Assembly (NCBI RefSeq): GCF_001696615.3
Contig: NZ_CP032279.1
Span: 2,480,001 to 2,544,000, forward strand
Reading direction: 5' to 3'
From: Acinetobacter sp. WCHAc010034
Lineage (GTDB): Bacteria; Pseudomonadota; Gammaproteobacteria; Pseudomonadales; Moraxellaceae
DNA: 64,000 nucleotides
The notes under the pieces were generated by a model that was not told where the DNA came from, ran no database searches, and saw nothing but the letters and a program-made list of their open reading frames with translations. This document shows positions 10,424-44,548 of the stretch, one piece after another. The position numbers were made by a program, and so were the translations under genes. Position 1 is the first letter of the stretch, and every line of letters starts with the position of its first letter.

Positions 10424-10443
10424 CGGAACGCCCCGGCATAAAG

Positions 10444-10469: not shown

Positions 10470-10537
10470 ATGGCTGGCGCAATTCAGCCCTTAACATGCA
10501 GCTGGATATATTGTATTGAAAACGCGCAGCATATTTT

Positions 10538-10567
10538 TTGTAAGTTTTTGAGCGCAAATGCTATAAT
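10538..10567 (+). promoter_or_regulatory. Probable sigma-70 promoter of the aryl-polyene operon
   Basis: The -35 candidate is TTGTAA (10538-10543), then an 18-bp spacer, then a perfect -10 TATAAT (10562-10567). It lies between the relA terminator and the first ape gene, about 50 bases before its ATG. No other strong promoter is obvious inside the following tightly packed operon. Confidence 0.65.
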
Positions 10568-10618
10568 CCGCGCCACTATTTTGAAGACGAATTTGAAAGG
10601 GTCAGGGTATATCGGCGC

Positions 10619-11239
10619 ATGATACAAATGAATGTGTCCCGGCTTTGCGTAAGCCGGGCAGATGAAGTTTTTCCTGCATTGGCGCAAATTCCCGCCCTGC
10701 AGCGCCGCCGCTTATCGCCTATTGCAAAACTGGCCTTCAGCAGCGCAATGCAGGCGCTGTCCGGAATGCCTGCGGACTATATTGTCTGGGTGTCGCAGTA
10801 CGGCGATGAAGCTAAAACACTGAAAATCCTTGAAGATGTCCTCAAGGATCAAACCCCTTCACCGACGCAATTTTCAACCTCAGTGCATAATGCAATTTCA
10901 GGTTTATATTCCATTTTATGTCAGGATCCGACACCTGCGACCAGCTTGGCAGGTTCGTGGAATGATGGGTTGATTGAAGCCTATGCATGGTTAAAAGCAA
11001 TGCCAGAAGCCCGTCAGGTTTTGCTGGTGTATTATGATGAAGCCTTGCCAGACATTTATATCGAGCATCAACCCTTTGCTGCTTTTGCGGTGGCAGCGAT
11101 GATTTCATTAGCGCCTGCCAATTTGATGTTGACGCCAAAGCATACAGATTCAACGCCAGCCTATCAGCAGGCTTTAGCATTTAACACGTTTTGGACTAAT
11201 CCTGAGCAAACTGAATCAGAAGCGTGGACGAAATGCTGA
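10619..11239 (+). CDS. apeC: Aryl-polyene ketosynthase chain-length factor (beta-ketoacyl synthase N-terminal-like)
   Basis: The 206-residue protein matches the short ketosynthase-like chain-length factor that opens aryl-polyene clusters (ApeC in Xenorhabdus naming). It has no catalytic Cys-His-His triad and would pair with the ApeO ketosynthase to set polyene length. Recognisable segments are SPIAKLAFSSAMQAL and SVHNAISGLYSI, the latter reminiscent of thiolase-fold packing. The next gene overlaps its stop. Base composition breaks inside this gene: the line at 10681 has 37 G/C in 60 nt, the line at 10861 only 21. The first third therefore looks like host DNA and the rest like the imported cluster. 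A second in-frame ATG at 10628 is also possible. Confidence 0.82.
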   Translation: MIQMNVSRLCVSRADEVFPALAQIPALQRRRLSPIAKLAFSSAMQALSGMPADYIVWVSQYGDEAKTLKILEDVLKDQTPSPTQFSTSVHNAISGLYSILCQDPTPATSLAGSWNDGLIEAYAWLKAMPEARQVLLVYYDEALPDIYIEHQPFAAFAVAAMISLAPANLMLTPKHTDSTPAYQQALAFNTFWTNPEQTESEAWTKC

Positions 11240-12045
11240 AATTAAATCGAATCAAGCAAAAAGCCAACTATGTCTGGCGCGTTGGAGCGACAGGGTTTAG
11301 TTTTGCCAGCTTTGGCTTAGGCGGCGTGGCGATTGGCGGTTTGATTGCACCAATGGTTAAGCTGAGTTCAGCAGATCCAGAAGTTCGAAAGCAGCGCACT
11401 CAAAAAGTCATTAAGCATAGTTTTAAAGGTTTTACTGAGATGATGGTGAAACTGGGCATCATGACCTATACGGTTGAAGGCTTAGACAAACTGCAGCACA
11501 GCCAGCAGGAGCTGGTGATTGCCAACCATCCGACACTGATTGACGTGGTGGTTTTAATTGGTTTAATGGAACAAGCAAACTGTGTGGTCAAGCAGGCGTT
11601 GTGGTCGAACCCATTTACCAAAGGCCCTGTGCAAAGTGCAGGCTATATTTTAAATGCAGGTTCTGAACAATTTATTCAGGACTGCGTATACAAATTACAA
11701 CAGGATCATGCGGCGTCCTTGTTAATCTTCCCTGAAGGGACAAGAACGGCAAAAGGTGAGCAACTGAATGATTTTCAGCGTGGTGCGGCCAATATTGCTC
11801 TACGTGCAGGTGTGCCGATTCGCCCTGTGCTGATTAGCTGTGCGCCATCGACCCTGACCAAAAATGAAAAGTGGTATCACATTCCAGAACAGCCTTTTCA
11901 TATCCATGTGAAAGTGCTGGATGCGATCCGAGTGGAAGACGTATTGGATGACGTAACGGTCAATCCCAAAAATGTGCGTCAATTAAATCAACAATTACAG
12001 TGGTTTTTTAACCAAGAGTTATCCGTAAATGAGCAATCTTGCTGA
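11233..12045 (+). CDS. Lysophospholipid acyltransferase (PlsC family) of the aryl-polyene cluster
   Basis: Counted from the ATG at 11233, the protein has 270 residues; the GTG at 11224 is an alternative. It has the acyltransferase signature NHPTLID (H99, D104) and the second motif FPEGTRT (E168). A hydrophobic N-terminal stretch (about residues 20-42) should anchor it to the inner membrane. By position it corresponds to ApeD, thought to help attach the polyene to its lipid. The start overlaps the apeC stop (ATGCTGA), indicating translational coupling. Confidence 0.85.
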   Translation: MLKLNRIKQKANYVWRVGATGFSFASFGLGGVAIGGLIAPMVKLSSADPEVRKQRTQKVIKHSFKGFTEMMVKLGIMTYTVEGLDKLQHSQQELVIANHPTLIDVVVLIGLMEQANCVVKQALWSNPFTKGPVQSAGYILNAGSEQFIQDCVYKLQQDHAASLLIFPEGTRTAKGEQLNDFQRGAANIALRAGVPIRPVLISCAPSTLTKNEKWYHIPEQPFHIHVKVLDAIRVEDVLDDVTVNPKNVRQLNQQLQWFFNQELSVNEQSC

Positions 12046-12289
12046 TGAATTAAAGCAAATGATTATTGATGTCCTTGCCCTTGAAGACATCCATATTGAA
12101 GACATTGATACAGATGCACCTTTATTTGGTGATGGTCTGGGTTTGGACTCGATTGATGCTTTAGAACTGGGTTTGGCATTGAAAAAGCGCTATGGCATTC
12201 ATTTGAATGCAGAGTCTGCAGAAACAAAAGAACATTTTAAATCAATTCAAAGCTTAGTGGCTTTGGTTGAAGCACAGAAAACAGCATAA
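12029..12289 (+). CDS. apeE: Acyl carrier protein (first)
   Basis: An 86-residue acidic carrier protein with the phosphopantetheine attachment serine S41 in GLGLDSIDALEL. The 4'-phosphopantetheinyl arm carries the growing polyene intermediates. It overlaps the end of the acyltransferase gene by 17 bases and is followed by a second carrier gene, the usual tandem pair in aryl-polyene clusters. The PPTase encoded at 27352 is the obvious activating enzyme. Confidence 0.93.
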   Translation: MSNLADELKQMIIDVLALEDIHIEDIDTDAPLFGDGLGLDSIDALELGLALKKRYGIHLNAESAETKEHFKSIQSLVALVEAQKTA

Positions 12290-12298
12290 GAGGTTGCT

Positions 12299-12547
12299 AT
12301 GCTTGCACAAGAAACCGTGTTAGAAAAATTACGTGAGTGGATGGAAGAGCTGTTTGAAATTGCGCCTGAAGATGTGCAGTTAGAATCAAACTTAGCTTCA
12401 GACCTCGATGTTGATAGTATTGATGCCATTGATTTGGTCGTGAAAATTAAAGAACTGACAGGCAAACAAGTCAATCCTGAAGACTTTAAAAACGTGCGTA
12501 CCGTAGAAGATGTGGTGCTCGTGATTCAGAATATGTCGGCTGCATGA
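12299..12547 (+). CDS. apeF: Acyl carrier protein (second)
   Basis: An 82-residue acyl carrier protein with attachment serine S40 in DLDVDSIDAIDL. AGAGG lies just upstream of the ATG as a ribosome binding site. In the Xenorhabdus system the two carriers differ in the chains they carry; which one loads the aryl starter here cannot be told from sequence. The stop overlaps the next start (ATGA). Confidence 0.93.
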   Translation: MLAQETVLEKLREWMEELFEIAPEDVQLESNLASDLDVDSIDAIDLVVKIKELTGKQVNPEDFKNVRTVEDVVLVIQNMSAA

Positions 12548-13098
12548 ACAACATTTTAAAAGGGATAGCAGGGGTTGGATTGATCCTCTATCCTTTTTTT
12601 GTGGCTTATTCTTTAGCGCATGGACAGTATGTCTGGGTCAGTGCCGTATTGATTGCACTGGGTATTTTACGTCTCTTGAGTAAGGGCAATGCCCTGCTAT
12701 GGCCCTTGACCGGTTTTGCCATTTTATGTGGCGGGTTGAGTTTGATTTTAAAAGATCATGCGTGGCTGAAACTCTATCCTGTCTTTATGAGTCTTGGGGC
12801 GCTGTTTATTTTTACCAGCACTTTGATTCGACCGCCTTCAATGATTGAACGTTTTGCACGTTTGGCAGAGCCTAATCTGCCCGAAGAAGGAGTAGAATGG
12901 ACCCGTCAAGTGACCAAAGTTTGGTGTGGTTTTTTTTGCATCAATGCGGTCATTGCCCTGATCACTGTTTTCTTTGCACCGATGAAGATTTGGGTGCTGT
13001 ATAACGGTTTGATCTCTTATATCTTGATGGGTGGACTGTTACTGGGTGAGTTTGTCTTGCGTAAACGTCAGCAACGACTGCATCAGGCACAGAAATAA
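12544..13098 (+). CDS. COG4648-type inner-membrane protein of the aryl-polyene cluster
   Basis: A 184-residue integral membrane protein with about five hydrophobic helices, for example LIALGILRLL, LLWPLTGFAILCGGL and LYPVFMSLGALFIF. It is the conserved small membrane protein that follows the two carrier genes in these clusters (ApeG position). Its biochemical function is not known to me. The start overlaps the apeF stop by four bases. Confidence 0.75.
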   Translation: MNNILKGIAGVGLILYPFFVAYSLAHGQYVWVSAVLIALGILRLLSKGNALLWPLTGFAILCGGLSLILKDHAWLKLYPVFMSLGALFIFTSTLIRPPSMIERFARLAEPNLPEEGVEWTRQVTKVWCGFFCINAVIALITVFFAPMKIWVLYNGLISYILMGGLLLGEFVLRKRQQRLHQAQK

Positions 13099-13176
13099 CA
13101 GCATTTCCGTCAGGGCAACTGAAATAGTGGCCTCGAACTATAGCGATTAGAAATACGGTTTTTAAAAACAAATTTT

Positions 13177-14838
13177 ATGTCTTGTCATTTTCAACACCAT
13201 CTCCATTCATCACGTCCCTTGTGTATTCAGGCGGACTCAAGTTTTGTGTCCTTTCACACTTTTTGGTTGGATGTAGCTGTGCAGGCTATGCAAATTCAGC
13301 AGTTGGAACAGCCAGTATGGGCGCTTTGGCAAGAAGACAGTTATGAGTTTTTGGTATTGTTGTTTGCAGCCTTGCAAGCAGGTAAGCAAGTGCTGTTGCC
13401 GCCGCATCGGGTCAGCGACTTAGAAAAAGAACTGGCTGAACAGCAGATTTATTTTTTACAACGTTTGCCGTCGACAGCCGCGTCAACCTTTGAGCTTCAA
13501 TTTGATGCTGCCTTTCTCAATCAGGCACAGCTGTATTTTTATACTTCGGGCTCAACTGGGCAACCGAAAAAGATTCCACGCAGCTTGCAACAGTTGTTCA
13601 ATGAAGTCTGTGGCTTGGAAGCCAGTTTTGATTTGCCTGAACAGGCGGTGGCGATTGCCACGGTGAGTCATCAGCATATTTATGGCTTGTTGTTCAAGCT
13701 GTTGTGGCCCTTAGCCAGTGGACGCAGTTTCTATCAAAAACAACAGGCTTTCCCTGAAGAGGTGGTCGATCTTCAAAAGAAAATTGCCCATTTGCAACTG
13801 CCCAATTATCTGATTTCAAGTCCTGCATTGTTGAAGCGCTGGACCACAGATGTGGTGTTGCAAGACTGCCATCGGGTCTATTCCTCTGGTGGAAAGTTGG
13901 ATGCAGGCGTGCGTCCTTTGCTGAATCGCCCGATTACTGAAGTGTTTGGCAGTTCTGAAACAGGTGGGATCGCTCACCGTCAGGCGGATGATGCACTATG
14001 GACACCCTTTGCCAATGTCGAAATTAACTGCGCCGAGCAACAAGAGTTAGCCGTTAAAACCAATCATGCCTTTAGCACGGATTGGATTTTGACTGGAGAT
14101 AAAGTGCAGGTTGCAGATGTACAGAATCCCAAAAGTCCATTCCAGTTATTGGGGCGTTTGGACCGCATTGTCAAACTTGAAGAAAAGCGGTTAAGTCTCG
14201 ATGCGATTGAAGCAAAAATCGCTGAGTTGGCAGAAATACAGCAGTGCCATGTTTTAATTCATGAAAAAGAACAGCGTCAGATGTTGGCGGTGGTGGCAGT
14301 GTTGACGGATGATGCAAGGGAGCTGCTCATTGAAAAGGGTAAAGCTGCCTTTACCGCACAACTGAAAAAACAATTACAACAGAAACTGGAAAGTATCGCG
14401 ATTCCGCGGCAGTGGCGGTTTTTAACGCAAATGCCACAAAATGCCCAATCGAAGCTGAATAAACAGTATTTAAAATCGCTCTTTCAACCGATGACCTTGC
14501 CTGTGGTATTGACGCAGCAGTCTCAGGATATGCAGATCACTTATGCTTTGGAGTTTGTGCCTGAGCTGGAATGCTTTAAAGGGCATTTCCCAAACTTCCC
14601 GATTTATCCGGGTGTAGGGCAAATTGGATTTATTCAACATTTTGCTAAACAAAACTGGGCAGATTTACTGTGGTGCAATGGTTTTGAACAGTTAAAATTT
14701 CAAGGACTGATCCAACCCTATCAAACGGTGGAACTGGTGCTCAGCCGTAAAGCGCATAAGGTCAGTTTTGAGTTGAAAAATCATGACAAAATATTGGCAT
14801 CAGGACGTTTGCTGTTTGCTGTCACTGTAGACGTTTAA
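13177..14838 (+). CDS. Acyl-ACP synthetase fused to a hotdog dehydratase (ApeH-ApeI type)
   Basis: At 553 residues this is two enzymes in one chain. The first roughly 440 residues form an adenylate-forming ligase: P-loop FYTSGSTGQPKK (121-132), EVFGSSETGG, the aspartate motif LTGDKVQ and hinge GRLDRIVK. It should activate the aryl acid and load it on a carrier protein. The last roughly 100 residues form a FabZ/FabA-like hotdog domain with GHFPNFPIYPGVGQ, matching the separate ApeI dehydratase of Xenorhabdus and E. coli. A 78-base gap precedes it, the longest in the first half of the operon. No stop or frameshift marks the joint, so the fusion appears genuine. Confidence 0.88.
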   Translation: MSCHFQHHLHSSRPLCIQADSSFVSFHTFWLDVAVQAMQIQQLEQPVWALWQEDSYEFLVLLFAALQAGKQVLLPPHRVSDLEKELAEQQIYFLQRLPSTAASTFELQFDAAFLNQAQLYFYTSGSTGQPKKIPRSLQQLFNEVCGLEASFDLPEQAVAIATVSHQHIYGLLFKLLWPLASGRSFYQKQQAFPEEVVDLQKKIAHLQLPNYLISSPALLKRWTTDVVLQDCHRVYSSGGKLDAGVRPLLNRPITEVFGSSETGGIAHRQADDALWTPFANVEINCAEQQELAVKTNHAFSTDWILTGDKVQVADVQNPKSPFQLLGRLDRIVKLEEKRLSLDAIEAKIAELAEIQQCHVLIHEKEQRQMLAVVAVLTDDARELLIEKGKAAFTAQLKKQLQQKLESIAIPRQWRFLTQMPQNAQSKLNKQYLKSLFQPMTLPVVLTQQSQDMQITYALEFVPELECFKGHFPNFPIYPGVGQIGFIQHFAKQNWADLLWCNGFEQLKFQGLIQPYQTVELVLSRKAHKVSFELKNHDKILASGRLLFAVTVDV

Positions 14839-14851
14839 GCCGAGAGACAAA

Positions 14852-15586
14852 ATGAAACACTGCTTTGTGATTCCTGTGTATAACCATCCGCATTATTTGG
14901 CGGCGTTACTGTCACATTTAAGCGCTTTTGAGTTACCCATCATTATGGTGAATGATGGCAGTGATGCCGATTGTACAGCAGTGTTACATCAGCTTGCGCA
15001 CGACTACCCAAGGGTCGATTTGGTTGAACATACCTACAATCAGGGGAAGGGGCAGGCGGTGATCACGGGTCTCAAGCATGCCTTTCAATGTGGCTATAGC
15101 CATGCCTTGCAATTGGATGCCGATGGACAACATGATTGGCAGGATGTGCAACGCTTTTTAGACACTTCTATCCAGCATCCTGAAGCCATGATTATTGGTC
15201 AGCCGATCTTTGATACGACTGTTCCAAAAAAACGTCTCTATGGCCGTTATGCAACCCATATTTGGGTGTGGATTAACAGCCTGTCTTTTGAGATTAAAGA
15301 CAGTATGTGTGGCTTTCGTGTTTATCCTTTGGCGCAGACAGTAAACATTCTAAATACAGCCAAATTTCAACCGCGGATGGGCTTTGACTCGGAAATTTTG
15401 GTGCGTTTGAAATGGGATAATGTGCCGTTTATCAATTTGCCCACGCATGTCGTTTACCCTGAAGGTGGCATTTCACATTTCGATGTGTGGCGGGACAATC
15501 TGGGCATGGCGCGCGCGCATAGTCGCTTATTGGGTGGCATGCTGCTGAGGTTCCCCAAACTGATTTATAAGAAAGTCAAAGGTTAA
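14852..15586 (+). CDS. Family 2 glycosyltransferase of the aryl-polyene cluster
   Basis: A 244-residue GT-A fold transferase. It opens with FVIPVYNHPHYL, has the nucleotide-binding VNDGSDADCT and the metal-binding LDADGQHDW. A membrane-associated C-terminal helix is not obvious. In some aryl-polyene clusters this domain is the first half of the bifunctional ApeJ glycosyltransferase/acyltransferase. Here the acyltransferase half is a separate gene 17 bases downstream. It probably transfers a sugar or lipid head group during polyene anchoring; this is inference. Confidence 0.85.
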   Translation: MKHCFVIPVYNHPHYLAALLSHLSAFELPIIMVNDGSDADCTAVLHQLAHDYPRVDLVEHTYNQGKGQAVITGLKHAFQCGYSHALQLDADGQHDWQDVQRFLDTSIQHPEAMIIGQPIFDTTVPKKRLYGRYATHIWVWINSLSFEIKDSMCGFRVYPLAQTVNILNTAKFQPRMGFDSEILVRLKWDNVPFINLPTHVVYPEGGISHFDVWRDNLGMARAHSRLLGGMLLRFPKLIYKKVKG

Positions 15587-15603
15587 GGCGGTCAGAGAAG
15601 CAT

Positions 15604-16518
15604 ATGCAGAAATGGAGCGCCGTGAAAGAGCGGGGCGGGATGTTACCGCTGATGCTGATGCTGGGTTTCTACCGTTTAGGTGGGCGCTGGCTGTGTCGGG
15701 TCATCTTGTACTTTGTGATTTTATGGTACTGGCTCTTTTCCAATACCGCGCGTCAGGCTTCTCTGTTGTACTTAAAAAAACTGCATCATTTTGCAGGTGC
15801 ACAGTCACCGTTTCAGGCTGAGCCGCAGCTTTGGCATAGCTATACGCATTTGATGCAATTTGGCGAATGTATTTTAGATAAAATTGAAGGTTGGCTTGGG
15901 CATATTCCTGAACAGAACTTAAAGCTACATGGTCATGCGCACTTTCGCTCGCACTATCAAAAAGGTGCGGTGATTGTGGTGTCGCACTTTGGCAATATTG
16001 AATTGTTGCGCGCCGTCAAAGCAGAGCATCCGCAGAGAATTAATGTGTTGGTCTATCAAAAACATGCTACCAAATTCAATGCATTTTTAAAAAAGCTGAA
16101 TGAACATGCCGATGTTAATTTGGTTTCGGTGGATGAGCTAGGAATCGAAACAGCACTGATTTTACAGGATAAGTTGGATCAAGGTGAATGGGTGATTGTG
16201 GCAGCAGACCGCGTACCTGTGCAGTCAGATCGGGTACAATCGGTTGCGTTTTTAGGTGAGCAGGCGCTGTGGCCACAGGGCGCATGGATTTTGGCCAGTT
16301 TGTTGAAAGCTCCTGTGCTAGCTGTGTTTTGCTATCGAGTCGATACACATTTTGAAGTGCATATCCATCAAGTCGCGGAGCAGTTAAACTGGCCACGTAA
16401 AGAGCGTTTACAGGCCATGCAACAGACCACACGACAGTATGTGGAGCTGTTGGAACAGCATTGCATACGCGCACCCTATCAATGGTTTAATTTTTATAAT
16501 TTTTGGAATAAAGGATAA
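15604..16518 (+). CDS. LpxL/HtrB-like acyltransferase of the aryl-polyene cluster
   Basis: A 304-residue LPLAT-superfamily protein resembling lipid A acyltransferases. It has a hydrophobic N-terminal anchor (WLCRVILYFVILWYWLF), then VVSHFGNIELLRA, the HxxxxE-type catalytic motif. A later VIVAADRVPVQSD block corresponds to the substrate region. The position matches the acyltransferase half of ApeJ. It would acylate a lipid carrier for the polyene at the inner membrane. The ATG at 15604 overlaps no gene and has GAAGC upstream, a modest ribosome binding site. Confidence 0.83.
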   Translation: MQKWSAVKERGGMLPLMLMLGFYRLGGRWLCRVILYFVILWYWLFSNTARQASLLYLKKLHHFAGAQSPFQAEPQLWHSYTHLMQFGECILDKIEGWLGHIPEQNLKLHGHAHFRSHYQKGAVIVVSHFGNIELLRAVKAEHPQRINVLVYQKHATKFNAFLKKLNEHADVNLVSVDELGIETALILQDKLDQGEWVIVAADRVPVQSDRVQSVAFLGEQALWPQGAWILASLLKAPVLAVFCYRVDTHFEVHIHQVAEQLNWPRKERLQAMQQTTRQYVELLEQHCIRAPYQWFNFYNFWNKG

Positions 16519-16523
16519 GTCTT

Positions 16524-18056
16524 GTGTTAATTGTTGGGGAAACTCCGCTCAGTATTGAAGATGTTGTGGCTGTAGCGCGTAAAGAAAAACAGGTGGCATT
16601 GCCTGCTTCTGCTGAATGGACAGCATTGATTCAACGTGGCGCAGATTTCCTCGATCAGCTGTTGCAAGACGAAGGCGTCATTTATGGCGTGACCACGGGC
16701 TATGGCGATTCGTGCTTGGTCGAAATTCCAGCCCATCAAGTGCATGAGTTGCCACTACATTTGTCGCGTTTTCATGGCTGTGGCATGGGACAAAACTTAG
16801 ACTTAATGACCGCACGTGCTGTAGTGGTGGTGCGTTTATGTTCTTTAGCACGCGGTTATTCGGGTGTTTCACATGCCTTGTTACAGCGTTTGGTTTGGAT
16901 GCTGAATGAAGATGTCATTCCTGTAATTCCCTCAGAAGGTTCGGTGGGTGCCAGTGGGGACTTGACGCCTTTGTCTTATATCGCTGGGGCCTTGGTCGGT
17001 GAGCGTGATGTGTACTATCAAGACCAGATTGTGCCGATTGCACAAGTGTATGCCGAAAAAGGTTTGGAGCCTTTGGTGATGCGTCCTAAAGAAGGCTTGG
17101 CCCTGATGAATGGTACAGCGGTTATGACCGCGATTGCCTGCCTGAATTATAAAAAAGCCGAACAGATTTCTTTTGCCAGTACTTTGATTACTGCCCTGAA
17201 TGTCTTGGCTTTAGAAGGGAATCCAAGCCATTTTGATGAAGTCTTGTTTGCGCAGAAACCACATCCGGGACAGCAACATATTGCAGCTCAGTTACGTGAC
17301 TGGTTAAACAGTGAAGTGCAGACCGAGCACCAAAGTTCGCGCCTGCAAGACCGTTATTCACTGCGCTGTGCACCGCATGTGATTGGGGTGTTTGAAGATT
17401 CTAAAGTCTGGTTGCGTCAGTTTATTGAAAATGAGCTGAATTCAAGTAATGACAACCCATTGATTGATCCTGTCAATTTGCGGGTACTGCATGGTGGACA
17501 TTTCTATGGCGGACATATTGCCCAAGCCATGGACAGCCTGAAAATTATGATCGCGAATATTGCCGACTTGATGGATCGTCAGTTGGCACAGTTGGTCGAC
17601 TATAAAATGAACAATGGTTTGCCGCGCAATTTAACCGGTTCAAGCCCTGAGCGTTTGCCGTTGAATCATGGCTTTAAAGCGGTGCAAATTGGGGTTTCGG
17701 CATGGACAGCAGAAGCCTTGAAACAAACCCTCGCTGCGTCGATTTTCTCACGCTCAACCGAATGTCATAATCAAGACAAAGTCAGTATGGGTACCATTGC
17801 TGCGCGTGATGCCAGTCGAGTGATTACCCTGACTGAACAAGTGATTGCGGCACTCAGCTGTGCAGCGGTTCAGGCGGTCAAACTCAAAGGGGTAGATACA
17901 GAACTCAGCCCTGTTTTAACAGCATTTCAACACTGGGTGCTTCAGAGCTTCACCTATGTAGCGGAAGATCGTCCTTTGCAGCAAGAGCTTCAGGCATTGG
18001 TTCATCGCTTTGAGGATTTAGAACTGTTAGACAGCATTGCTGTTCAATATTCATAG
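16524..18056 (+). CDS. HAL/PAL-family aromatic amino acid ammonia-lyase
   Basis: A 510-residue member of the MIO-dependent lyase family. The self-cyclising triad A143-S144-G145 sits in VGASGDLTPL, and the catalytic tyrosine is Y54 in IYGVTTGYGD. A conserved GSSPER and QDKVSMGT follow. These enzymes release ammonia from His, Tyr or Phe. The selectivity region reads HLSRFHGCG; aligned by eye to the Gly-x-Gly, the pair in the ring-binding position is Ser-Arg, neither the Ser-His of histidine nor the His-Leu of tyrosine lyases. It starts with GTG behind AAAGGATAAG. It may supply a cinnamate-type aryl starter, but its substrate is open. Confidence 0.85.
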   Translation: MLIVGETPLSIEDVVAVARKEKQVALPASAEWTALIQRGADFLDQLLQDEGVIYGVTTGYGDSCLVEIPAHQVHELPLHLSRFHGCGMGQNLDLMTARAVVVVRLCSLARGYSGVSHALLQRLVWMLNEDVIPVIPSEGSVGASGDLTPLSYIAGALVGERDVYYQDQIVPIAQVYAEKGLEPLVMRPKEGLALMNGTAVMTAIACLNYKKAEQISFASTLITALNVLALEGNPSHFDEVLFAQKPHPGQQHIAAQLRDWLNSEVQTEHQSSRLQDRYSLRCAPHVIGVFEDSKVWLRQFIENELNSSNDNPLIDPVNLRVLHGGHFYGGHIAQAMDSLKIMIANIADLMDRQLAQLVDYKMNNGLPRNLTGSSPERLPLNHGFKAVQIGVSAWTAEALKQTLAASIFSRSTECHNQDKVSMGTIAARDASRVITLTEQVIAALSCAAVQAVKLKGVDTELSPVLTAFQHWVLQSFTYVAEDRPLQQELQALVHRFEDLELLDSIAVQYS

Positions 18057-18059
18057 GAA

Positions 18060-18485
18060 ATGAGCATGCATGCTGATGTAATCATTGAAGTGCCTTTTCA
18101 TGATGTCGACACCATGAATGTGGTGTGGCACGGGCATTATTTAAAATATTTTGAAATTGCGCGCTGCAAATTGCTGGATCAATTTCACTATAACTATAAC
18201 CAAATGCGTGACTCGGGCTATGCATGGCCGGTGATTGAAAGTCATGTGCGTTATGTACAAGGCATTGAGTTTGAGCAAAAAATTCGTGTGCGCGCCGTTT
18301 TGAAAGAATGGGAAAATCGCTTAAAAATCGAATATCTGATTTTCGATGCGGTTTCAGGCAGAAAGCTGACCAAGGGTTATACCTCGCAAGTGGCGGTACA
18401 TATTGAAAAACGTGAAATGTGCTTCCAGTCACCACAGGTGTTGCTGGACTGTTTAAATGCATGGCCTGAATTTAAAGCGGAGTAA
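18060..18485 (+). CDS. apeK: 4HBT-family acyl thioesterase
   Basis: A 141-residue hotdog-fold thioesterase of the YbgC/FadM type. The active-site aspartate lies in FHDVDTMNVVWHGHYLKYFE. It corresponds to ApeK, thought to release or edit carrier-bound chains. It starts three bases after the ammonia-lyase stop, so translation is probably coupled. Length and motif match the family closely. Confidence 0.87.
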   Translation: MSMHADVIIEVPFHDVDTMNVVWHGHYLKYFEIARCKLLDQFHYNYNQMRDSGYAWPVIESHVRYVQGIEFEQKIRVRAVLKEWENRLKIEYLIFDAVSGRKLTKGYTSQVAVHIEKREMCFQSPQVLLDCLNAWPEFKAE

Positions 18486-18492
18486 TGCAAGC

Positions 18493-19134: not shown

Positions 19135-21433
19135 ATTTAGCGCCCTGTGGCTGTTGGTGCTGTGTGTCATTACTTTGGCACTGGGCGTGGCTTGGCTGAA
19201 TAAAGGCATTAAGATTGAGACCAATATTTTTGCTTTGCTGCCTGAGGCACATCAAGATGCTTATCTGGAACAAGCACAGCAATATGTCAGTCAGCAGTTA
19301 AATGACAAAGTCTTTGTGGTGCTGGATGCCAAAACAGATCTGCAACTCGAACAGGCAACGCAGGCACTCAAAACCCAAGCCGACCACAGTCAGCTGTTTT
19401 TACCTGTTCGTCCACAGCTTGATCCTGATCAATTTGCCCAAGCACTGTATCTACACAAGGCGGGGTTATTATCCAAGACAGATCAACAGATTGTGCAAGG
19501 GCAGGATACTGCAGCGTTAATGGAGCAGGGCTTATTACAACTGATGAGTCCAGGCCTGCCAATCACGGCTGAAATGCTGAAACAAGATCCTTTATTGCTG
19601 TTTCCGCGCTATGCAGTGGGTTTAAGCGCCTTACAAAGCAATGCCGATATCAATTTAGAGCAGGGCTTTGCGACCATTCGTGATGAACAGGGCATCTCGC
19701 GCCTGATGGTGCTTCAGCTCAACAACAGCCCTTATAACATTGCCTACCAAGAGCAGACTGCTGCTTTTATTCAAAATATCAATCAGCAGCTTAGCCAGTT
19801 GCAGGTTAAACCGCACTGGACAGGAACACTGCTGTTTGCACAGTTCGGCACCAATTCTGCCAAAGAGGAAATCTCGACTATTGGCGTGGGTTCGACCATT
19901 GGAATATTACTGCTGGTCTGGTTTGGCTTCCGTTCGATACGCCCGATGCTGACGGAAATGGTTGCAGTCGGTACCGGCAGTCTGGTGGCCTTTGCAGTGA
20001 CATATTGGGTTTTCGGCGAAATTCACCTGATGACACTGGTCTTTGGCGCCAGTCTGATAGGGGTCTGTGTCGATTTTTCATTTTACTTTATGGCCATGCA
20101 GTCTCAGCATCGACAGATGGATGGATTTGCAGTTTTAAAACCATTATTGCCAAGCCTATTTGTGGGTTTGATGACCACACTGTTGGCTTATGTGGTGCTG
20201 AGTTTTACCCCATTTCCGGGTTTTAAGCAGATTGCGGTCTTTTCCATGGTTGGACTGAGCGCCGCATGGGTGACCAGTATTTTATTGCTGCCACGCTTGC
20301 CTGCGCTGAATGCGGAACCTGCGATACGTGCTTTGGGCTTTATTGGCAAAGCACGTAGTTATGTGCAGCGCCACAACACGCTACGTTATGGCATGATTTC
20401 ACTGATTATATTGGTAATGGGTAGCAGCCTTGTCTTCCTGAAAAGTAATGATGACATCCGCAATTTACAAAGTATGGATGCCACTTTAAAGCAGGAAGAT
20501 CAATATATTCGTTCGCGTTTTATGCAACAGCAAAGCAGTGAATATTTTGTGGTACAAGGTCGAACCCCAGCAGAATTAGAACAGCGCGAACAGCAACTGC
20601 TGGCAGAGCTTGCGCCCTTGCAGCAGGCTGGCAAGTTGGATGCTGTACAAGCTTTAGGGCAATGGATTCCATCGCTTGAGCAGCAAAAACACAATATTGC
20701 AATGTTGCAGGCGATTCCCCAGCCCGCTTTGGTGGAATATGCGCAAGCGTTACAGCTCAACGCAGCCGATGTTTTAAACTGGCAAGCGCATTTAAAAGAC
20801 CAGCCGTTGCTGACCGAAGCCGTCTTTAAAGATCATCCTCTGTATTTTTTGCAGATGAGTCCGACGCAGCGTTTGGTGATGCTGCAAAATGTACATGATG
20901 TGAATGCCGTACAGCAGCTTGAGAATGCTGATGTGCAACTGTTACGTCCCGTTCATCAACTGTCTGAATTGTTTAAACAGCACCGTGAGCAGGCACAGTG
21001 GCTATTGCTCAGCGCTTTGGTGATTTTAGCCATTGGCTTAGGGGCACTATATGGCAAAAAATCAATTCTGCCTTTGGTGTTGCCTGTCAGCATGGCCTTA
21101 ATGACCACGTTTGCGATTCAAGCATGGCTGGGTGTCGAGATTAATTTATTCAGCATTATGGGTACCTTCCTGATCATTGGAATTGGGGTGGATTATGCAA
21201 TTTTCTACCGCCACGGACATGATCACCCGCAGGTGGTGGGCATGGCTTTATTCCTGTGCATGATGTCGACGTTCTTTAGTTTTGGTTTGCTGTCCTTTAG
21301 TCATACCTATGCCATTCACAGTTTTGGCTTAACAGTGTTGCTGGGCGTTATTTTTTCATTTATTTATGCCACACTTTTTACATCCTCCGATGCAAAACAT
21401 GTGGTGGTTCAACAATATCAGCCAAAGAGCTGA
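19109..21433 (+). CDS. MMPL/RND-family exporter
   Basis: A 774-residue RND-like permease with two repeats, each containing one large extracytoplasmic loop and a five- or six-helix membrane block. Examples are GVGSTIGILLLVWFG and FGASLIGVCVDFSFYFMAM in the first half, and FLIIGIGVDYAIFYRHGHD in the second. The paired GVCVDFSFYF/GIGVDYAIFY segments are the usual charged TM4/TM10 motifs for proton coupling. This is the ApeM-type exporter, predicted to move the polyene lipid across the inner membrane. It starts inside the LolA gene. Confidence 0.88.
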   Translation: MRFSNWQNKFSALWLLVLCVITLALGVAWLNKGIKIETNIFALLPEAHQDAYLEQAQQYVSQQLNDKVFVVLDAKTDLQLEQATQALKTQADHSQLFLPVRPQLDPDQFAQALYLHKAGLLSKTDQQIVQGQDTAALMEQGLLQLMSPGLPITAEMLKQDPLLLFPRYAVGLSALQSNADINLEQGFATIRDEQGISRLMVLQLNNSPYNIAYQEQTAAFIQNINQQLSQLQVKPHWTGTLLFAQFGTNSAKEEISTIGVGSTIGILLLVWFGFRSIRPMLTEMVAVGTGSLVAFAVTYWVFGEIHLMTLVFGASLIGVCVDFSFYFMAMQSQHRQMDGFAVLKPLLPSLFVGLMTTLLAYVVLSFTPFPGFKQIAVFSMVGLSAAWVTSILLLPRLPALNAEPAIRALGFIGKARSYVQRHNTLRYGMISLIILVMGSSLVFLKSNDDIRNLQSMDATLKQEDQYIRSRFMQQQSSEYFVVQGRTPAELEQREQQLLAELAPLQQAGKLDAVQALGQWIPSLEQQKHNIAMLQAIPQPALVEYAQALQLNAADVLNWQAHLKDQPLLTEAVFKDHPLYFLQMSPTQRLVMLQNVHDVNAVQQLENADVQLLRPVHQLSELFKQHREQAQWLLLSALVILAIGLGALYGKKSILPLVLPVSMALMTTFAIQAWLGVEINLFSIMGTFLIIGIGVDYAIFYRHGHDHPQVVGMALFLCMMSTFFSFGLLSFSHTYAIHSFGLTVLLGVIFSFIYATLFTSSDAKHVVVQQYQPKS

Positions 21434-21451
21434 GTCAAAGGGTACAGTGCA

Positions 21452-22753
21452 ATGAGCACCATGCAACAGACAGATGTTTTAATTATTGGGGCAGGACCAT
21501 CAGGCAGTTCGGCTGCGGCTTTGCTGCGCCAAAAAGGCCATCAAGTCACGGTCATCGAAAAGCAATATTTTCCGCGTTTTTCCATCGGCGAGTCTTTATT
21601 GCCGCAGTGTATGGTGTTTTTAGAAGAAGCCGGTTTATTGGAAACGGTGCGTGCCCATGCCGACGAATATGCCTTTCAGTTTAAAAATGGCGCGGCTTTT
21701 TTAAGAGGCACACAGCGCAGTTTTTATGATTTTACTCAAAAGTTTAGTGAAGGCCCAGGCACTACATGGCAGGTCCGGCGTGCCAACTTTGATCAGCTTT
21801 TGGCACAGCAAGCCGGAAAAATGGGCGCGGACATCCGTTTTGGCCATGAAGTTTTGGCCGTCGATGTGGCATCCACACAGCCGATTTTGACGGTCAAAGA
21901 TGCGCAAGGTGACAGCTATCAAATTCAAGGCAAGTTCCTCTTAGATGCCAGCGGTTTTGGCCGTATTTTGCCGAAGTTTCTTGACTTAGAAAGTCCATCG
22001 GACTTTCCTGTGCGCCGTGCAGTCTTTACCCATATTGAAGACGGTCTATTGAATGACCCTGAGTTTGACCGTGAGAAAATTTTAATTACCGTACATGAAA
22101 AAGATCATCGTGCGTGGTATTGGCTGATTCCCTTTGCCGATGGGCGCTCTTCATTTGGCATCGTGGCGGAGCAAGATTTCTTTGAAAAATATGGTTATGA
22201 CGGCAGTGCAGACTATGACTTAGAAGCCTTGCAAAAACGTATTTTGGCCGATGATGTTAGCTTGTCGCATGTATTGCGCCATGCCAAACATGATACTCCT
22301 GTGCGGACTTTGGTGGGCTACTCTGCCGATGTGAAACATTTGGCCTCCAACAATTATGCACTGCTGGGCAATGCGGGCGAGTTCCTCGATCCTGTCTTTT
22401 CTTCAGGGGTAACCATTGCCTTGAAATCATCCAGTCTAGCCGTGCCATTGGTCGAGCAAGTGCTGCAAGGTCAGGCAGTAGATTGGATGGAGCAATATGA
22501 AAAGCCGCTGCGTAAAGGCATTCAGGTATTCCGTGCCTATGTCGAGTCATGGTATTCAGGTGAATTTCAGGATGTGGTGTTCTCCACTCATCAGGATGAA
22601 AAAATCCGCCGTATGATTGCTTCCTTACTGGCAGGTTATGCGTGGGATGCAAGCAACCCGATTCATCGTAATGCCAAGCAACGCTTGAGCACTTTGGCCG
22701 AATATTGCCGGGAAGAACAACCGCAAAAAGAGTCACTGACCGATGAAACTTGA
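21452..22753 (+). CDS. FAD-dependent oxidoreductase, tryptophan-halogenase-like
   Basis: A 433-residue flavoprotein with the dinucleotide motif IIGAGPSGSSAAAL (11-24), PRFSIGESLLP (41-51) and the halogenase-type WYWLIP (222-227). A later LLGNAGEFLDPVFSSG closes the FAD site. This family includes flavin halogenases and geranylgeranyl reductase-like enzymes. In aryl-polyene and flexirubin clusters, similar genes are thought to modify the aryl ring or polyene, by hydroxylation or halogenation. The sequence does not decide which. It overlaps the lipoprotein gene by 11 bases. Confidence 0.83.
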   Translation: MSTMQQTDVLIIGAGPSGSSAAALLRQKGHQVTVIEKQYFPRFSIGESLLPQCMVFLEEAGLLETVRAHADEYAFQFKNGAAFLRGTQRSFYDFTQKFSEGPGTTWQVRRANFDQLLAQQAGKMGADIRFGHEVLAVDVASTQPILTVKDAQGDSYQIQGKFLLDASGFGRILPKFLDLESPSDFPVRRAVFTHIEDGLLNDPEFDREKILITVHEKDHRAWYWLIPFADGRSSFGIVAEQDFFEKYGYDGSADYDLEALQKRILADDVSLSHVLRHAKHDTPVRTLVGYSADVKHLASNNYALLGNAGEFLDPVFSSGVTIALKSSSLAVPLVEQVLQGQAVDWMEQYEKPLRKGIQVFRAYVESWYSGEFQDVVFSTHQDEKIRRMIASLLAGYAWDASNPIHRNAKQRLSTLAEYCREEQPQKESLTDET

Positions 22754-23300
22754 GCTGCGTTTGAAAACTGTCAGTTGGATTTTAGCCAGTGCTTTGCTCT
22801 GTAGTGCCTGCCAAAGCTGGATCCCCAAGGCGCAGGGACTCGCGACCCCGCAGTGGGCTGCGCAAAATTATCAACGTCAAGATCAAATCGAAGTACAGTG
22901 GAAAACCCAGAGTTTCAGCTTTTTACTGTATCAGCAACAACGGGGGCAGTCGCTTGATATGCTGGCGCTCAGCCTCACAGGACAGCAGTTGTTTAAGCTC
23001 AGTTTTGATGGTCAAAAGGTCGAAGTTGAACAGCGGATTGATCCAATGAAACGGTTACCTTTTGATTATGTAGTGCGTGATATTCTGTATGCCACTTATC
23101 CAAATTTTGCTGCCTTACATACTGCTCAAAATGCGGTCGTGCAGAAAGACGATACCATTTATATACAGCAGCAACCCGTGTTGAAAATTCAGCAAAATGA
23201 AGGAACAATTGAACTGGATAATTTGCAAGTGCCTTATCAAATGGTGATCAGCACGGTGAGCAATACTTTAGAAGATGATCAAGGTGACCATCATGACTAA
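22743..23300 (+). CDS. DUF3261-type lipoprotein
   Basis: A 185-residue lipoprotein with a signal peptide ending in the lipobox ALLCSAC, so Cys 22 or 23 should be lipidated. The mature part is beta-rich with no catalytic motif that I can name. It is the conserved DUF3261 member of aryl-polyene clusters. It may help place the polyene in the outer membrane, which is inference from context. The end of the gene overlaps the ketosynthase start. Confidence 0.78.
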   Translation: MKLELRLKTVSWILASALLCSACQSWIPKAQGLATPQWAAQNYQRQDQIEVQWKTQSFSFLLYQQQRGQSLDMLALSLTGQQLFKLSFDGQKVEVEQRIDPMKRLPFDYVVRDILYATYPNFAALHTAQNAVVQKDDTIYIQQQPVLKIQQNEGTIELDNLQVPYQMVISTVSNTLEDDQGDHHD

Positions 23301-24489
23301 AAATCTACAGCATGTTTCAGCCGTGGGGATTCAGTTCAGTGTGGCGCTGTCGGCTTTGGGGCAAAATGCCACTGAGCTTCAGCATGCCTTAACCAATACT
23401 GAAAATACTTTGTCGCAACGAGAGGATTTGATCGCGGGGCGTTCGGTTTGGGTCGGTGCATCTGATCAAGCCTTGGTTCAAGCAGTGCCTGAAAGCTTGA
23501 GCGGTGCAGATTCACGGAATCTACGCTTTGCCTTGACGGCTCTGGCACATATTGAAACTGAAATTCATGCTTATACTGCGCAGTTTGCTAAACAACGTCT
23601 TGCTGTGATTATCGGCACGTCAACCTCAGGCATCGCGGATAATGAGCCTGTATTGAAAGCGCAGTTTCAACAGCCAGCGTCAAAGTCTGTACAGCACCAA
23701 AAACAAGAAATGGGCAGTTTAGCGAAAGCCTTACAACAGTATTTGGGCTGGGAAGGGCCCGCCTATACCATTTCTACTGCCTGCTCCTCGGCAGCCAAAG
23801 CGCTGGCGGCGGGGCAACGTCTGCTGAATGCCGATCTGGCCGATGCTGTGTTGGTTGGAGGCATTGATACCTTATGCAAGCTGACCTTAAATGGTTTTGA
23901 TAGTTTAGAAAGCTTATCGAGCGGAATTTGTCAGCCCTGTGGTGCCAACCGTGACGGTATCAATATTGGTGAAGCCGCAGGACTGTTTTTACTTTCTAAA
24001 GCGCTTGCCCCTGTGATGTTACTGTCGAGCGGCGAGTCAATGGATGCGTGGCACATTTCAGCACCGCATCCAGAAGGACGAGGGGCTGCGGAGGCGATGC
24101 AAAAAGCTTTAGATATGGCACAGCTGCAAGCAAGCAATATTGGATATTTAAATTTGCATGGTACATCCACACCCCAAAATGATGCGATGGAAATTCAAGC
24201 GGTACAGACTGTTTTCTCAGATGCAGCTGTGGCTTTGAGCAGTACCAAACATAAAACAGGGCATTGTCTGGGGGCAGCGGGTGCAATCGAAGCCTTTATT
24301 TGCCAACAAGTTTTATTGGACCAATCCTGGTTGCCGCTACATCATGCAGGTGAGTTGGACGATGCTTTGGCTGGGCAAAATTATGTGCTTACACCGCATT
24401 TGAATACACCCATTCGCTATGCGATGAGTAATTCTTTTGCTTTTGGGGGGAGCAACATCAGTTTAATTTTCGGGACGGCTTTGTCATGA
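23293..24489 (+). CDS. apeO: Aryl-polyene beta-ketoacyl synthase
   Basis: Counted from the ATG at 23293 (AAGGTGA six bases upstream), the protein has 398 residues. The catalytic triad is complete: C164 in STACSSAAKAL, H289 in LHGTSTP and H324 in HKTGHCLGAAGA. It is the condensing partner of the ApeC chain-length factor and extends the aryl-primed chain with malonyl units. The gene order ketosynthase, dehydratase, ketoreductase, ketosynthase matches apeOPQR. The start overlaps the DUF3261 gene stop. Confidence 0.9.
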   Translation: MTKNLQHVSAVGIQFSVALSALGQNATELQHALTNTENTLSQREDLIAGRSVWVGASDQALVQAVPESLSGADSRNLRFALTALAHIETEIHAYTAQFAKQRLAVIIGTSTSGIADNEPVLKAQFQQPASKSVQHQKQEMGSLAKALQQYLGWEGPAYTISTACSSAAKALAAGQRLLNADLADAVLVGGIDTLCKLTLNGFDSLESLSSGICQPCGANRDGINIGEAAGLFLLSKALAPVMLLSSGESMDAWHISAPHPEGRGAAEAMQKALDMAQLQASNIGYLNLHGTSTPQNDAMEIQAVQTVFSDAAVALSSTKHKTGHCLGAAGAIEAFICQQVLLDQSWLPLHHAGELDDALAGQNYVLTPHLNTPIRYAMSNSFAFGGSNISLIFGTALS

Positions 24490-24923
24490 TGGACGCAGTA
24501 CAGTTTATTCCACATGCGAAACCGATGGTTTTTGTAAGTCATCTGATTGAAGCCAATGATACATTTGCGATTGCAGAACTTCATATCACAGCTGATTTGA
24601 TGTTTTGTGAGCCAAATGGCTTGCCCACATGGAGCAGTATTGAGCTGATGGCGCAGACCATTAGTGCCTATGCAGGCTATAAAGGGCAAACCAAGGGTTG
24701 GCCACCGAAAATTGGCTTTTTATTGGGAACGCGTAAAATGCAGTTACCCTGTGCCTATTTTAGTTTGGGTACAACCGTGCAGATTCGGGTCGAACAAAGT
24801 TATCTGCACGAAGGTTTGGGGCAGTTTAATTGTGAAATTGAATATCAAGAACATCGGTTCAGCGCTATGTTGAGCGTATTTGAGCCTGAAAATATGAATG
24901 AAATCATTGGAAAATTAGTGTGA
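24486..24923 (+). CDS. apeP: Aryl-polyene 3-hydroxyacyl-ACP dehydratase
   Basis: A 145-residue hotdog protein. It reads IPHAKPMVFVSHLIE at the N-terminus, and the conserved MAQTISAYAGYKG sits on the central helix. It matches ApeP, which forms a dehydratase pair with ApeI (here the C-terminal domain of the ligase fusion at 13177). Together they introduce the double bonds. Both ends overlap neighbours by four bases, suggesting strong translational coupling with apeO and apeQ. Confidence 0.87.
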   Translation: MMDAVQFIPHAKPMVFVSHLIEANDTFAIAELHITADLMFCEPNGLPTWSSIELMAQTISAYAGYKGQTKGWPPKIGFLLGTRKMQLPCAYFSLGTTVQIRVEQSYLHEGLGQFNCEIEYQEHRFSAMLSVFEPENMNEIIGKLV

Positions 24924-25645
24924 ACAGAAGAATTTTAGTCACGGGTTCGAGTCGAGGAATAGGTAAAGCGATCGCTTTGGAGTTGGCAAAGGCGGGCTTT
25001 GATGTCACGGTACATGCTCGTTCAAGACAGTCTGAGGCCGAAACGGTGGCTCAGGAAATTCAAGCACTTGGACAGGCCAGCCATGTACTGATGTTCGATG
25101 TGAATGAGCGTGAAAATATTGCCGCTATTTTAGAGCAAGATATAGCACAGCATGGTGCTTTTTACGGCGCTGTGTTGAATGCAGGATTAACCCGTGATGG
25201 TGCTTTCCCCGCACTGACTGATGAAGACTGGGATGATGTGGTCTCGACTTCTCTGAACGGTTTTTATAATGTGCTGAAACCCCTGATGATGCCGATGATC
25301 CGCTTGAAAAAGGGCGGACGTATTGTGACCTTATCTTCAGTGTCTGGGATCATGGGCAACCGTGGTCAGGTGAACTATAGTGCTGCTAAGGCAGGCTTGA
25401 TTGGTGCGACCAAAGCATTGGCACTGGAATTGGCAAAACGCAAAATTACGGTGAACTGTGTGGCTCCGGGCTTGATTGAAACCGAAATGGTCACGGAAGA
25501 AGTGAAAGAACATGCTTTGAAAATGATCCCGATGCAGCGCATGGGGCAGGTGGAAGAAGTCGCAAAAGCGGTGAAGTTTTTATGTAGTGATGATGCCAGT
25601 TATATCACTCGCCAAGTGATTTCAGTCAATGGAGGCTTGATCTAA
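24920..25645 (+). CDS. apeQ: Aryl-polyene 3-oxoacyl-ACP reductase (FabG type)
   Basis: A 241-residue short-chain dehydrogenase. The cofactor motif is TGSSRGIGKAIA, the catalytic serine lies in LSSVSGIMGN, and the YxxxK pair in YSAAKAGLIG. It reduces the 3-keto intermediate with NADPH. The GTG start at 24920 overlaps the apeP stop. The C-terminus (ITRQVISVNGGLI) is typical of FabG enzymes. It corresponds to ApeQ. Confidence 0.92.
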   Translation: MNRRILVTGSSRGIGKAIALELAKAGFDVTVHARSRQSEAETVAQEIQALGQASHVLMFDVNERENIAAILEQDIAQHGAFYGAVLNAGLTRDGAFPALTDEDWDDVVSTSLNGFYNVLKPLMMPMIRLKKGGRIVTLSSVSGIMGNRGQVNYSAAKAGLIGATKALALELAKRKITVNCVAPGLIETEMVTEEVKEHALKMIPMQRMGQVEEVAKAVKFLCSDDASYITRQVISVNGGLI

Positions 25646-26865
25646 TGAAACGTGTTGTCGTAACAGGCATGTCTGGGATTACCTCTTTGGGTGAAACCGC
25701 AGAGCAAATTTTTGAGCAGTTTGCACAAGGCAAAAGCGGTATTCGCTATATGCCTGACTGGGAAATTTATCCTGATTTACGCAGTAAATTGGCTGGCCCG
25801 GTGGAGTCATTTACTGTACCGAAGCATTTTAACCGTAAAGTAACCCGTGGCATGGGGCGTGTTGCTTTAATGTCTACGGTATGTGCTGAAAAAGCATTGG
25901 AAGATGCAGGTTTACTGCATGCGGATATCTTAAAAAGTGGTGATGCAGGCGTGGCCTTTGGTTCCTCTGCGGGCAGTGTGGATGCCGTGCGTGAGTTTGG
26001 TGCCATGTTGATTGAGCATAATATGAGCCAATTGAATGCCACAACCTACATTCGTATGATGTCGCATACCAGTGCAGTCAATATGACGGTGTATTTTGGT
26101 TTAAAGGGTTTAACCCTACCAACTTCGAGTGCTTGTACTTCAGGTTCTATGGCGATTGGCCAAGCTTATGAAGCGATCAAATATGGCAAGCAAACTGTGA
26201 TGATTGCGGGTGGTGCGGAAGAGCTCAGTGCAGCGGGTTCAGCCGTGTTCGATGTGCTATTGGCGACCAGTGTGCAAAATGATCATCCAGAGAAAACCCC
26301 ACGTCCGTTTGATGCAAGCCGAGATGGTTTGGTGGTGGGTGAAGGTGCAGGTTGTTTGATTTTAGAAGAGTATGAACATGCGCAAGCGCGTGGGGCGACC
26401 ATTTATGCCGAGATTGTGGGTTATGGCAGCAATACCGATGGTCAGCATGTGACCCGGCCTGATTCTGAAATGATGGGCCGTTGTATGCAGCTGGCGCTGA
26501 AGGATGCGCAGCTGGCAGCAGAGAGCATTGATTATGTCAATGCGCACGGCACATCGACCGATCAGGGCGATATCGCCGAGTCGCAGGCGACTGCGCGGAT
26601 CTTGGGGAAAAAACCGATCAGCTCATTAAAAAGCTATTTTGGCCATACCTTAGGCGCGTGTGGCGCAATTGAAGCTTGGCTCAGTATTGAAATGATGCAC
26701 CGCAGCCAGCTGGTGCCGACATTAAACTTAGATCAGGTTGACAGCGCCTGCGGCGGCTTGGATTATATTGCTGGAGGGATGCGCTCAGCAGAAGCGCAAA
26801 TCATCATGAGCAATAATTTTGCATTTGGCGGTATCAATACCTCCTTAATTTTTAAACGTGTTTAA
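25645..26865 (+). CDS. apeR: Aryl-polyene beta-ketoacyl synthase (FabF type)
   Basis: The second ketosynthase of the operon has 406 residues. The nucleophile is C164 in SSACTSGSMAIG, and the histidines lie in NAHGTSTDQGD and YFGHTLGACGA. ApeR is considered an accessory ketosynthase, possibly for the first condensation. It overlaps the apeQ stop by one base. Composition changes inside the gene: the line at 26041 has 25 G/C in 60, the line at 26701 has 36, and the switch falls near 26.45 kb. The protein itself shows no break. Confidence 0.9.
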   Translation: MKRVVVTGMSGITSLGETAEQIFEQFAQGKSGIRYMPDWEIYPDLRSKLAGPVESFTVPKHFNRKVTRGMGRVALMSTVCAEKALEDAGLLHADILKSGDAGVAFGSSAGSVDAVREFGAMLIEHNMSQLNATTYIRMMSHTSAVNMTVYFGLKGLTLPTSSACTSGSMAIGQAYEAIKYGKQTVMIAGGAEELSAAGSAVFDVLLATSVQNDHPEKTPRPFDASRDGLVVGEGAGCLILEEYEHAQARGATIYAEIVGYGSNTDGQHVTRPDSEMMGRCMQLALKDAQLAAESIDYVNAHGTSTDQGDIAESQATARILGKKPISSLKSYFGHTLGACGAIEAWLSIEMMHRSQLVPTLNLDQVDSACGGLDYIAGGMRSAEAQIIMSNNFAFGGINTSLIFKRV

Positions 26866-26884
26866 TTGGGAAGAGGGCATAACA

Positions 26885-43584: not shown

Positions 43585-43602
43585 AAATTTGGAGTGTGCG
43601 CC

Positions 43603-44529: not shown

Positions 44530-44548
44530 GCGGATCGGTTAAGATCAA

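Follow-up and report, generated by a model that had tools for sequence, protein, structure and literature searches.

An aryl-polyene-type gene cluster in Acinetobacter that was very probably replaced by homologous recombination inside its end genes

The window (the whole stretch of DNA that was analysed, 64,000 nt of contig NZ_CP032279.1) comes from a 3.84-Mb genome assembled into 13 contigs, which is placed in Acinetobacter by its nearest named relatives. It has a gene cluster that is predicted to be of the aryl-polyene (yellow pigment) type and extends from the start of apeC at position 10,619 to the end of apeR at 26,865. The cluster is located between spoT (positions 8120–10423, + strand) and three downstream genes: a small secreted protein gene, ssp (26858–27319, + strand), a 4'-phosphopantetheinyl transferase gene (27352–28008, + strand, PF01648) and secF (28081–29055, - strand). 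apeC (10619–11239, + strand, PF13723) encodes a ketosynthase-like chain-length factor, and apeR (25645–26865, + strand, PF00109/PF02801) a ketosynthase; they match PDB 7f28 and 7f27, which we take to be structures of ApeC and ApeR from A. baumannii. The cluster type was assigned by the presence of ketosynthase-family genes of the ApeC/ApeO/ApeR kind, two carrier proteins, an ApeI-type dehydratase and a ketoreductase. The domains found are PF13723, PF00109/PF02801 (twice), PF00550 (twice) and the ApeI-like PF22818. FabG-type reductase and beta-ketoacyl synthase models of NCBIfam score above their cut-offs in the cluster; apeC, the dehydratase and the small secreted protein matched no NCBIfam model. 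The ape gene letters follow gene order and the names used in a part of PMC8253772. A second copy of the cluster in this genome (G000) was considered and rejected, as a DNA search with the ammonia-lyase gene matches one place only; a search with the ApeR protein has four matches there, and the three that are listed are apeR, apeO and a FabF-like gene.

Comparison with other genomes indicates that the cluster once resident at this site has very probably been replaced through homologous recombination. An earlier sequence-only reading had proposed allelic exchange of a cluster already present, and the proposal is borne out by a resident site in four sister species, by conflicting trees and by joints inside the end genes. 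The putatively replaced block (about 10850–26490, + strand) is delimited by its identity to G170 (ANC 4204) and G180 and by a tree of core genes. It begins with the rest of apeC, an acyltransferase, two acyl carrier proteins, a membrane protein, an AMP ligase-ApeI fusion, a glycosyltransferase and an acyltransferase. These are followed by an aromatic amino-acid ammonia-lyase gene (HAL, 16524–18056, + strand), a thioesterase, a LolA-like protein, an MMPL exporter, a FAD enzyme, a lipoprotein, apeO, apeP, apeQ and most of apeR. apeC and apeR would both be chimeric, and their reading frames are intact despite the internal joints, as had been noted for the two proteins.

The site of the cluster is old, and the cluster is no new island, because A. 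bouvetii, A. pragensis, A. celticus and ANC 3813, the four sister species, all have an aryl-polyene cluster in the same spoT-secF position. In each of them spoT is on one side of it, and the counterparts of ssp, the transferase gene and secF are on the other. The transferase gene adjoins secF in the four sisters, and no match to it adjoins the cluster in the other-site loci that were retrieved. Among 175 Acinetobacter genomes scanned, the ammonia-lyase gene was found in 90 (93 rows minus three short chance matches in G034, G105 and G193), with no real match in 85. Among the 90 carriers it lies at most 12 kb from spoT in 25, the window included, and not so in 60; the spoT row of the other 5 is unlisted. 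Five loci (L134 and L137–L140) lack the cluster, spoT and secF being only about 0.8 kb apart, and these are apparent losses at the old site. One genome has two ammonia-lyase places of equal score (G026:C14:90577 and 307741), but its assembly has 9% estimated contamination and a duplication is unproven.

Trees from inside and outside the block are in conflict. The base-level analysis covers the 23 tree genomes, which were picked from 71 loci, from relatives found by search, and G180. The spoT tree groups the window with A. bouvetii, A. pragensis, ANC 3813 and A. celticus (support 100/100), and the order among the first three of these and the window is not settled. The core tree (AMP, HAL, MMPL and FAD genes, 6,813 columns kept, 23 genomes) places the window with A. 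bouvetii and 11 genomes that have the cluster at other sites (100/100), and with G170 and G180 in particular (100/100). The genomes of this core group are referred to below as the donor class. When the core of the window is constrained to join the four sisters, the cost is 2,233 log units, with a p of 4e-6 in the approximately unbiased (AU) test. Thus the expectation that the core would group with another lineage held. Joining the window to the 11 other-site genomes alone, with A. bouvetii outside, costs 34 log units and is rejected (AU p 0.013), because A. bouvetii falls inside that group.

Measures of divergence show the same division. The nearest of the 175 genomes in ammonia-lyase DNA are G170 (99%) and G180 (98%), followed by ten at 91–95%, A. 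bouvetii among them; A. pragensis and ANC 3813 are at 83%. The synonymous difference (pS) between the window and G170 is 0.84 in spoT and 0.77 in ssp. Eight cluster genes were counted, and their values range from 0.04 to 0.42, the lowest being that of HAL, the tract nearest to the donor class. For the four core genes combined, pS is 0.15 to G170 and 0.28 to A. bouvetii. Identity of the four core genes reaches at most 96% to any of the 22 other tree genomes, which argues against contamination from those genomes.

The left joint is inside apeC. Identity to G170 and G180 is 65–66% in the first 228 bases of the gene and 84–90% in the remainder. The changepoint is at 10,849 in comparisons with ACIN00150, G011 and A. 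bouvetii, and the best cut is at 10,777 with G170, G180, ANC 4173 and A. towneri; all intervals are within 10,771–10,858. For all six donor-class genomes tried, 0 of 1000 permutations gave a step as large. A site counted as diagnostic when at least 3 of 4 host-type genomes had one base in common and at least 75% of nine donor-class genomes had another. Up to 10,846 there are 34 diagnostic sites, of which the window shares 25 with the hosts, 5 with the donors and 4 with neither; over the rest of apeC, starting at 10,853, the counts are 0 host, 27 donor and 1 other. When restricted to sites of full agreement, the left tail has 6 host, 1 donor and 1 other, and the rest of apeC has 0, 4 and 0. The last host-like site is 10,845 and an unbroken donor-like run starts at 10,876, which places the junction at 10845–10876, where a break at about 10,850 had been expected. 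The 5' tail of apeC (10619–10845, + strand) is thus host-like in its diagnostic sites and reads as resident sequence. Its 228 bases are too short for a tree to decide (AU p 0.053 for the window with the donor class and 0.107 for the window with three hosts), so that the claim that this end groups with the host stands on the sites and is left undecided by the tree.

The right joint is inside apeR. As far as 26,479 the window is 98% identical to G170 and 94% to G180; beyond 26,492 the values are 83–84%. Changepoints are at 26,477–26,501 for G170, G180, ACIN00150, A. albensis and G011, with 26,490 as the position against G170, G180 and A. albensis. The 2-log-unit intervals (26,474–26,502 for G180, 26,479–26,496 for G170) define a junction at 26474–26502. 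Permutations gave 0 of 1000 for five of six donor-class genomes and 59 of 1000, which is not significant, for G011. Against the host controls A. pragensis, ANC 3813 and A. celticus there is no step in apeR (191–472 of 1000 permutations). ANC 4173, one of the five with 0 of 1000, and A. bouvetii give earlier breaks, at 26,099 and 25,865 respectively, which points to a mosaic. Before 26,479 the window is donor-like at 45 of 47 diagnostic sites.

The 3' tail of apeR (26503–26865, + strand) is probably resident. The last 120 codons of apeR have a G+C content at third codon positions (GC3) of 0.54, versus 0.25–0.44 in 11 donor-class genomes. A tree of the tail plus ssp groups the window with the four sisters and ANC 5054 (93/91), and grouping with the donor class has a p of 0.020. 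Tree and composition favour the host here and the diagnostic sites do not, and the assignment is less secure than that of the left tail. A break near 26,450 had been predicted within apeR, and it is now located slightly downstream, with a tail that is host-like in the tree and not in its sites. The view that ssp and the transferase gene are host DNA holds for the transferase, which is beside secF in the four sisters, and is less clear for ssp, where the high pS to G170 accompanies nearly even site counts (given below).

Base composition changes at both ends of the cluster. In 500-base windows G+C falls from 0.60 (start 10,000) to 0.46 (10,750) and rises from 0.49 (26,000) to 0.55 (27,250); the spoT-apeC gap itself has 0.46. 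Coding GC3 is 0.46 inside the cluster and 0.67 outside, and a model with two changepoints gains 166 log units over a single rate. The GC3 changepoints are at 10,423–10,816 on the left, in agreement with the drop that the sequence-only reading saw inside apeC, and at 26,947–27,082, within ssp, on the right. That reading put the right-hand change inside apeR, which is where the identity joint is but not the GC3 step. The GC3 changepoint was therefore rejected as a breakpoint finder, its right joint being about 0.5 kb too far. The four single-line G/C counts that had been offered as evidence are unsafe alone, as single 60-base stretches are noisy (0.65 beside 0.38 within the core part of apeR). 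Since 14 samples of 20 kb give a mean of about 0.48 G+C for the genome, it is the flanks that are locally GC-rich and the cluster is ordinary for the genome overall.

The step is significant because it has no counterpart in the other genomes examined at this site. In the window, GC3 is 71% in spoT and 41–50% in the cluster genes, with 29 and 39% in the two carrier proteins (45–50% without the carriers and the dehydratase). A comparable step is absent in all 11 other genomes examined, out of 24 others with the cluster at the spoT-secF site, and the step shared by close relatives that would have counted against the proposal is not seen. The largest gap among the 11 is in A. bouvetii, with 56% in spoT and 44–53% in the cluster, the carriers and the dehydratase (42%) aside. 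With the two carrier proteins set aside, A. pragensis has 49% in spoT and 47–61% in the cluster genes, and A. celticus 37% and 29–40%.

Several observations weigh against a single clean replacement with joints at these positions. On the left, the apeC cut interval from G170 only is 10,771–10,787 and not 10,849. Host controls also step in apeC, at 11,088–11,124 (0 of 1000 permutations for A. pragensis and A. celticus, 17 of 1000 for ANC 3813). In the left-tail tree the window with the donor class and A. bouvetii is unrejected (p 0.31), and the window with three hosts and ANC 5054 is weakly rejected (p 0.043). On the right, the diagnostic sites are 3 host, 8 donor and 2 other in the apeR tail and 11, 9 and 3 in ssp. 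The right-tail tree rejects the window with four sisters minus ANC 5054 (p 0.0075), ANC 5054 being inside the group, and the apeR tail alone has an unsupported place (53/66; p 0.031 for the window with the donor class). In the core, the nearest genome changes by stretch (G170, G180, A. bouvetii and others), which counts against a single event and a single donor; more than one exchange is likely behind the mosaic core.

The 11 other-site genomes of the donor class have the cluster at four other chromosomal sites: one in G170 and G180, a second in ANC 4173, ANC 4910, ANC 4178, A. tandoii and G011, a third in ACIN00150, A. towneri and A2, and a fourth in A. albensis. The last may be related to the first, as 1,483 bases of the A. 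albensis downstream flank match the G180 upstream flank. The G180 cluster has a LysR-type regulator and metF-like and ribB-like genes on one side and guaA-like and parA-like genes on the other (names read from translations of open reading frames of at least 120 and at least 150 aa), and no integrase was seen among the frames read around it. Over 11.3–23.3 kb, 400-base bins of the block are 88–100% identical to G170 and G180; over 23.3–26.5 kb, 100-base bins are 85–100% identical to them, with one bin each at 85. From 28.1 to 48.0 kb the window is 69–85% identical to them in nine matches of at least 700 bases. Alignments of donor-class genomes with the window run from the first base of apeC (from 10,682 in A. 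tandoii) to the last bases of ssp and then stop, at 27,318–27,319 for other-site genomes; those of ACIN00150, A. towneri and A2 are in two pieces. The sampled donors share only apeC to ssp with this site, and from such a donor homologous recombination could proceed only by two crossovers inside the cluster, which is the likely reason for the intragenic joints.

A mechanism can be proposed from these comparisons. In an ancestor of the window the spoT-secF site would already have been occupied by an aryl-polyene cluster. DNA taken up from an ANC 4204/G180-like Acinetobacter, whose own cluster lay elsewhere in the chromosome, would have paired with this resident copy, and about 15.6 kb would have been swapped by homologous recombination. 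Crossovers in apeC and apeR would leave two in-frame chimeric ketosynthase-family genes. The transfer was presumably into the window lineage, because three of the four sister species have a different core. Natural transformation, which moves large chromosomal stretches in Acinetobacter according to a part of PMC8787482, would be the likely route of entry. A ComEC-family protein is present in the window genome and lends this weak support, since 10 of 14 control genomes match as well.

Other explanations can be compared with this replacement. Insertion of the whole cluster as a new island at an empty spoT-secF site would fit the 85 genomes without the ammonia-lyase gene and the five clusterless loci. 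However, no empty site is found in the close relatives, all four of which carry the cluster there, the left end of apeC is host-like and so the element is not foreign throughout, and the steps are inside genes, at homologous positions and in frame; insertion is very improbable and was discarded on the occupied sister sites and the resident left tail. An explanation without transfer, by selection or codon use that varies along the cluster, could draw on the variability of apeC (mean host-donor identity of 52–80% per 60 bases) and on the step of host sequences near its 3' end. It is contradicted by the synonymous differences, the tree conflict and the GC3 step missing from the 11 other genomes, and the AU result for the core together with the synonymous differences leaves it almost no probability.

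Two further possibilities accept the transfer and change its history. The common ancestor of the window and A. bouvetii may have taken up the foreign core once, with later patches of the ANC 4204/G180 kind in the window. A. bouvetii does share both core class and site with the window, no other sequence is closer in the 3' part of apeC (96%), and the spoT tree leaves its order with the window, A. pragensis and ANC 3813 open. Between 10,701 and 10,846, however, A. bouvetii has 2 host and 12 donor sites while the window has 9 host, 2 donor and 3 other, and the core of the window is nearer in pS to G170 than to A. bouvetii; such an older exchange is unlikely, though tenable. The donor cluster could also have been at the spoT site, in which case the intragenic joints would be accidental and not imposed by where homology ends, as 2 of the 13 donor-class genomes (the window and A. 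bouvetii) have it there. G170 and G180, the closest sampled, have it elsewhere and without a shared flank, which makes a spoT-site donor rather doubtful. In the replacement favoured here, a donor with the cluster elsewhere in its chromosome is somewhat the more probable kind, and the true donor would then resemble the sampled genomes in this respect.

Similar exchange is seen elsewhere in the genus. A. bouvetii (L009/L233), with the same core class at the same site, retains resident apeC only to about 10,700; its diagnostic sites are 16 host, 0 donor and 4 other before that position and 2 host and 12 donor after it. By these site patterns it carries a similar replacement with another left joint. 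In its apeR a patch at about 25,885–26,060 (window coordinates) has no close match among the 13 genomes compared. ANC 3813 (L013/L237) and ANC 5054 (L011/L235) have a pS of 0.74 in spoT and 0.22 in the ammonia-lyase gene, and ANC 3813 is 92–95% identical to ANC 5054 from about 12.0 to 19.5 kb of its locus and 73–81% in the left flank, which suggests another cross-species exchange of the core. ACIN00150 is 100% identical to A. towneri and A2 (L005, L006, L007) in the apeR tail and ssp and 82–93% from apeC to MMPL, the pattern of a recent exchange confined to the right end.

In donor-class pairs with clusters at different sites, core pS is lower than spoT pS in 63 of 63 pairs (medians 0.31 and 0.70; 13 genomes, the window and A. 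bouvetii included). For ten spoT-site genomes of other core type this is so in 7 of 45 pairs (core 0.73, spoT 0.68). These values fit repeated spread of one core class. We entertain, tentatively, a wider view in which one core allele class is sweeping Acinetobacter as a unit independent of location. It would have replaced or founded clusters in at least five lineages and at five chromosomal sites, with its end genes as sole homology, and residents overwritten in this way, at whatever site, would end up with a chimeric ApeC and ApeR.

Another part of the window that is likely foreign by composition is the interval 43594–61234 between an ilvE-like gene and aspS. It has glycosyltransferase, dTDP-sugar and glycan genes, with G+C of 0.32–0.39 at 50–58 kb, and judged by its translations looks like a lipooligosaccharide outer-core locus.

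The finding is one of ordinary bacterial gene exchange, unusually clear and apparently repeated among species. It gives a view, near base resolution, of the replacement of a resident natural-product cluster between species with copies at different sites, and offers a reason for joints inside the first and last genes of the cluster. If the exchange is repeated, as A. bouvetii and ANC 3813/ANC 5054 suggest, the aryl-polyene type would depart from Acinetobacter species trees, and trees of the cluster would be misleading as species markers. ApeC is the chain-length partner of ApeO according to a part of PMC8253772, and a chimeric ApeC would be a natural test of ApeC/ApeO subunit exchangeability. 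No report of aryl-polyene cluster replacement in Acinetobacter was found among the titles and abstract beginnings listed in a literature search, a search with most subscription papers outside its scope. In A. baumannii, partial accounts describe exchange of the outer-core (ilvE-aspS) and capsule loci, where likewise a whole biosynthetic locus is swapped at a fixed site between lineages. Crossovers there are reportedly in conserved flanking genes, and gene content changes. At the site described here, in contrast, gene order is the same and the joints are inside the end genes of the cluster itself. In Enterobacteriaceae, aryl-polyene clusters are found on pathogenicity islands and have been suggested to be transmissible between bacteria, as stated in a part of PMC8253772; the same kind of cluster is there part of an island, whereas here it would have replaced a resident copy.

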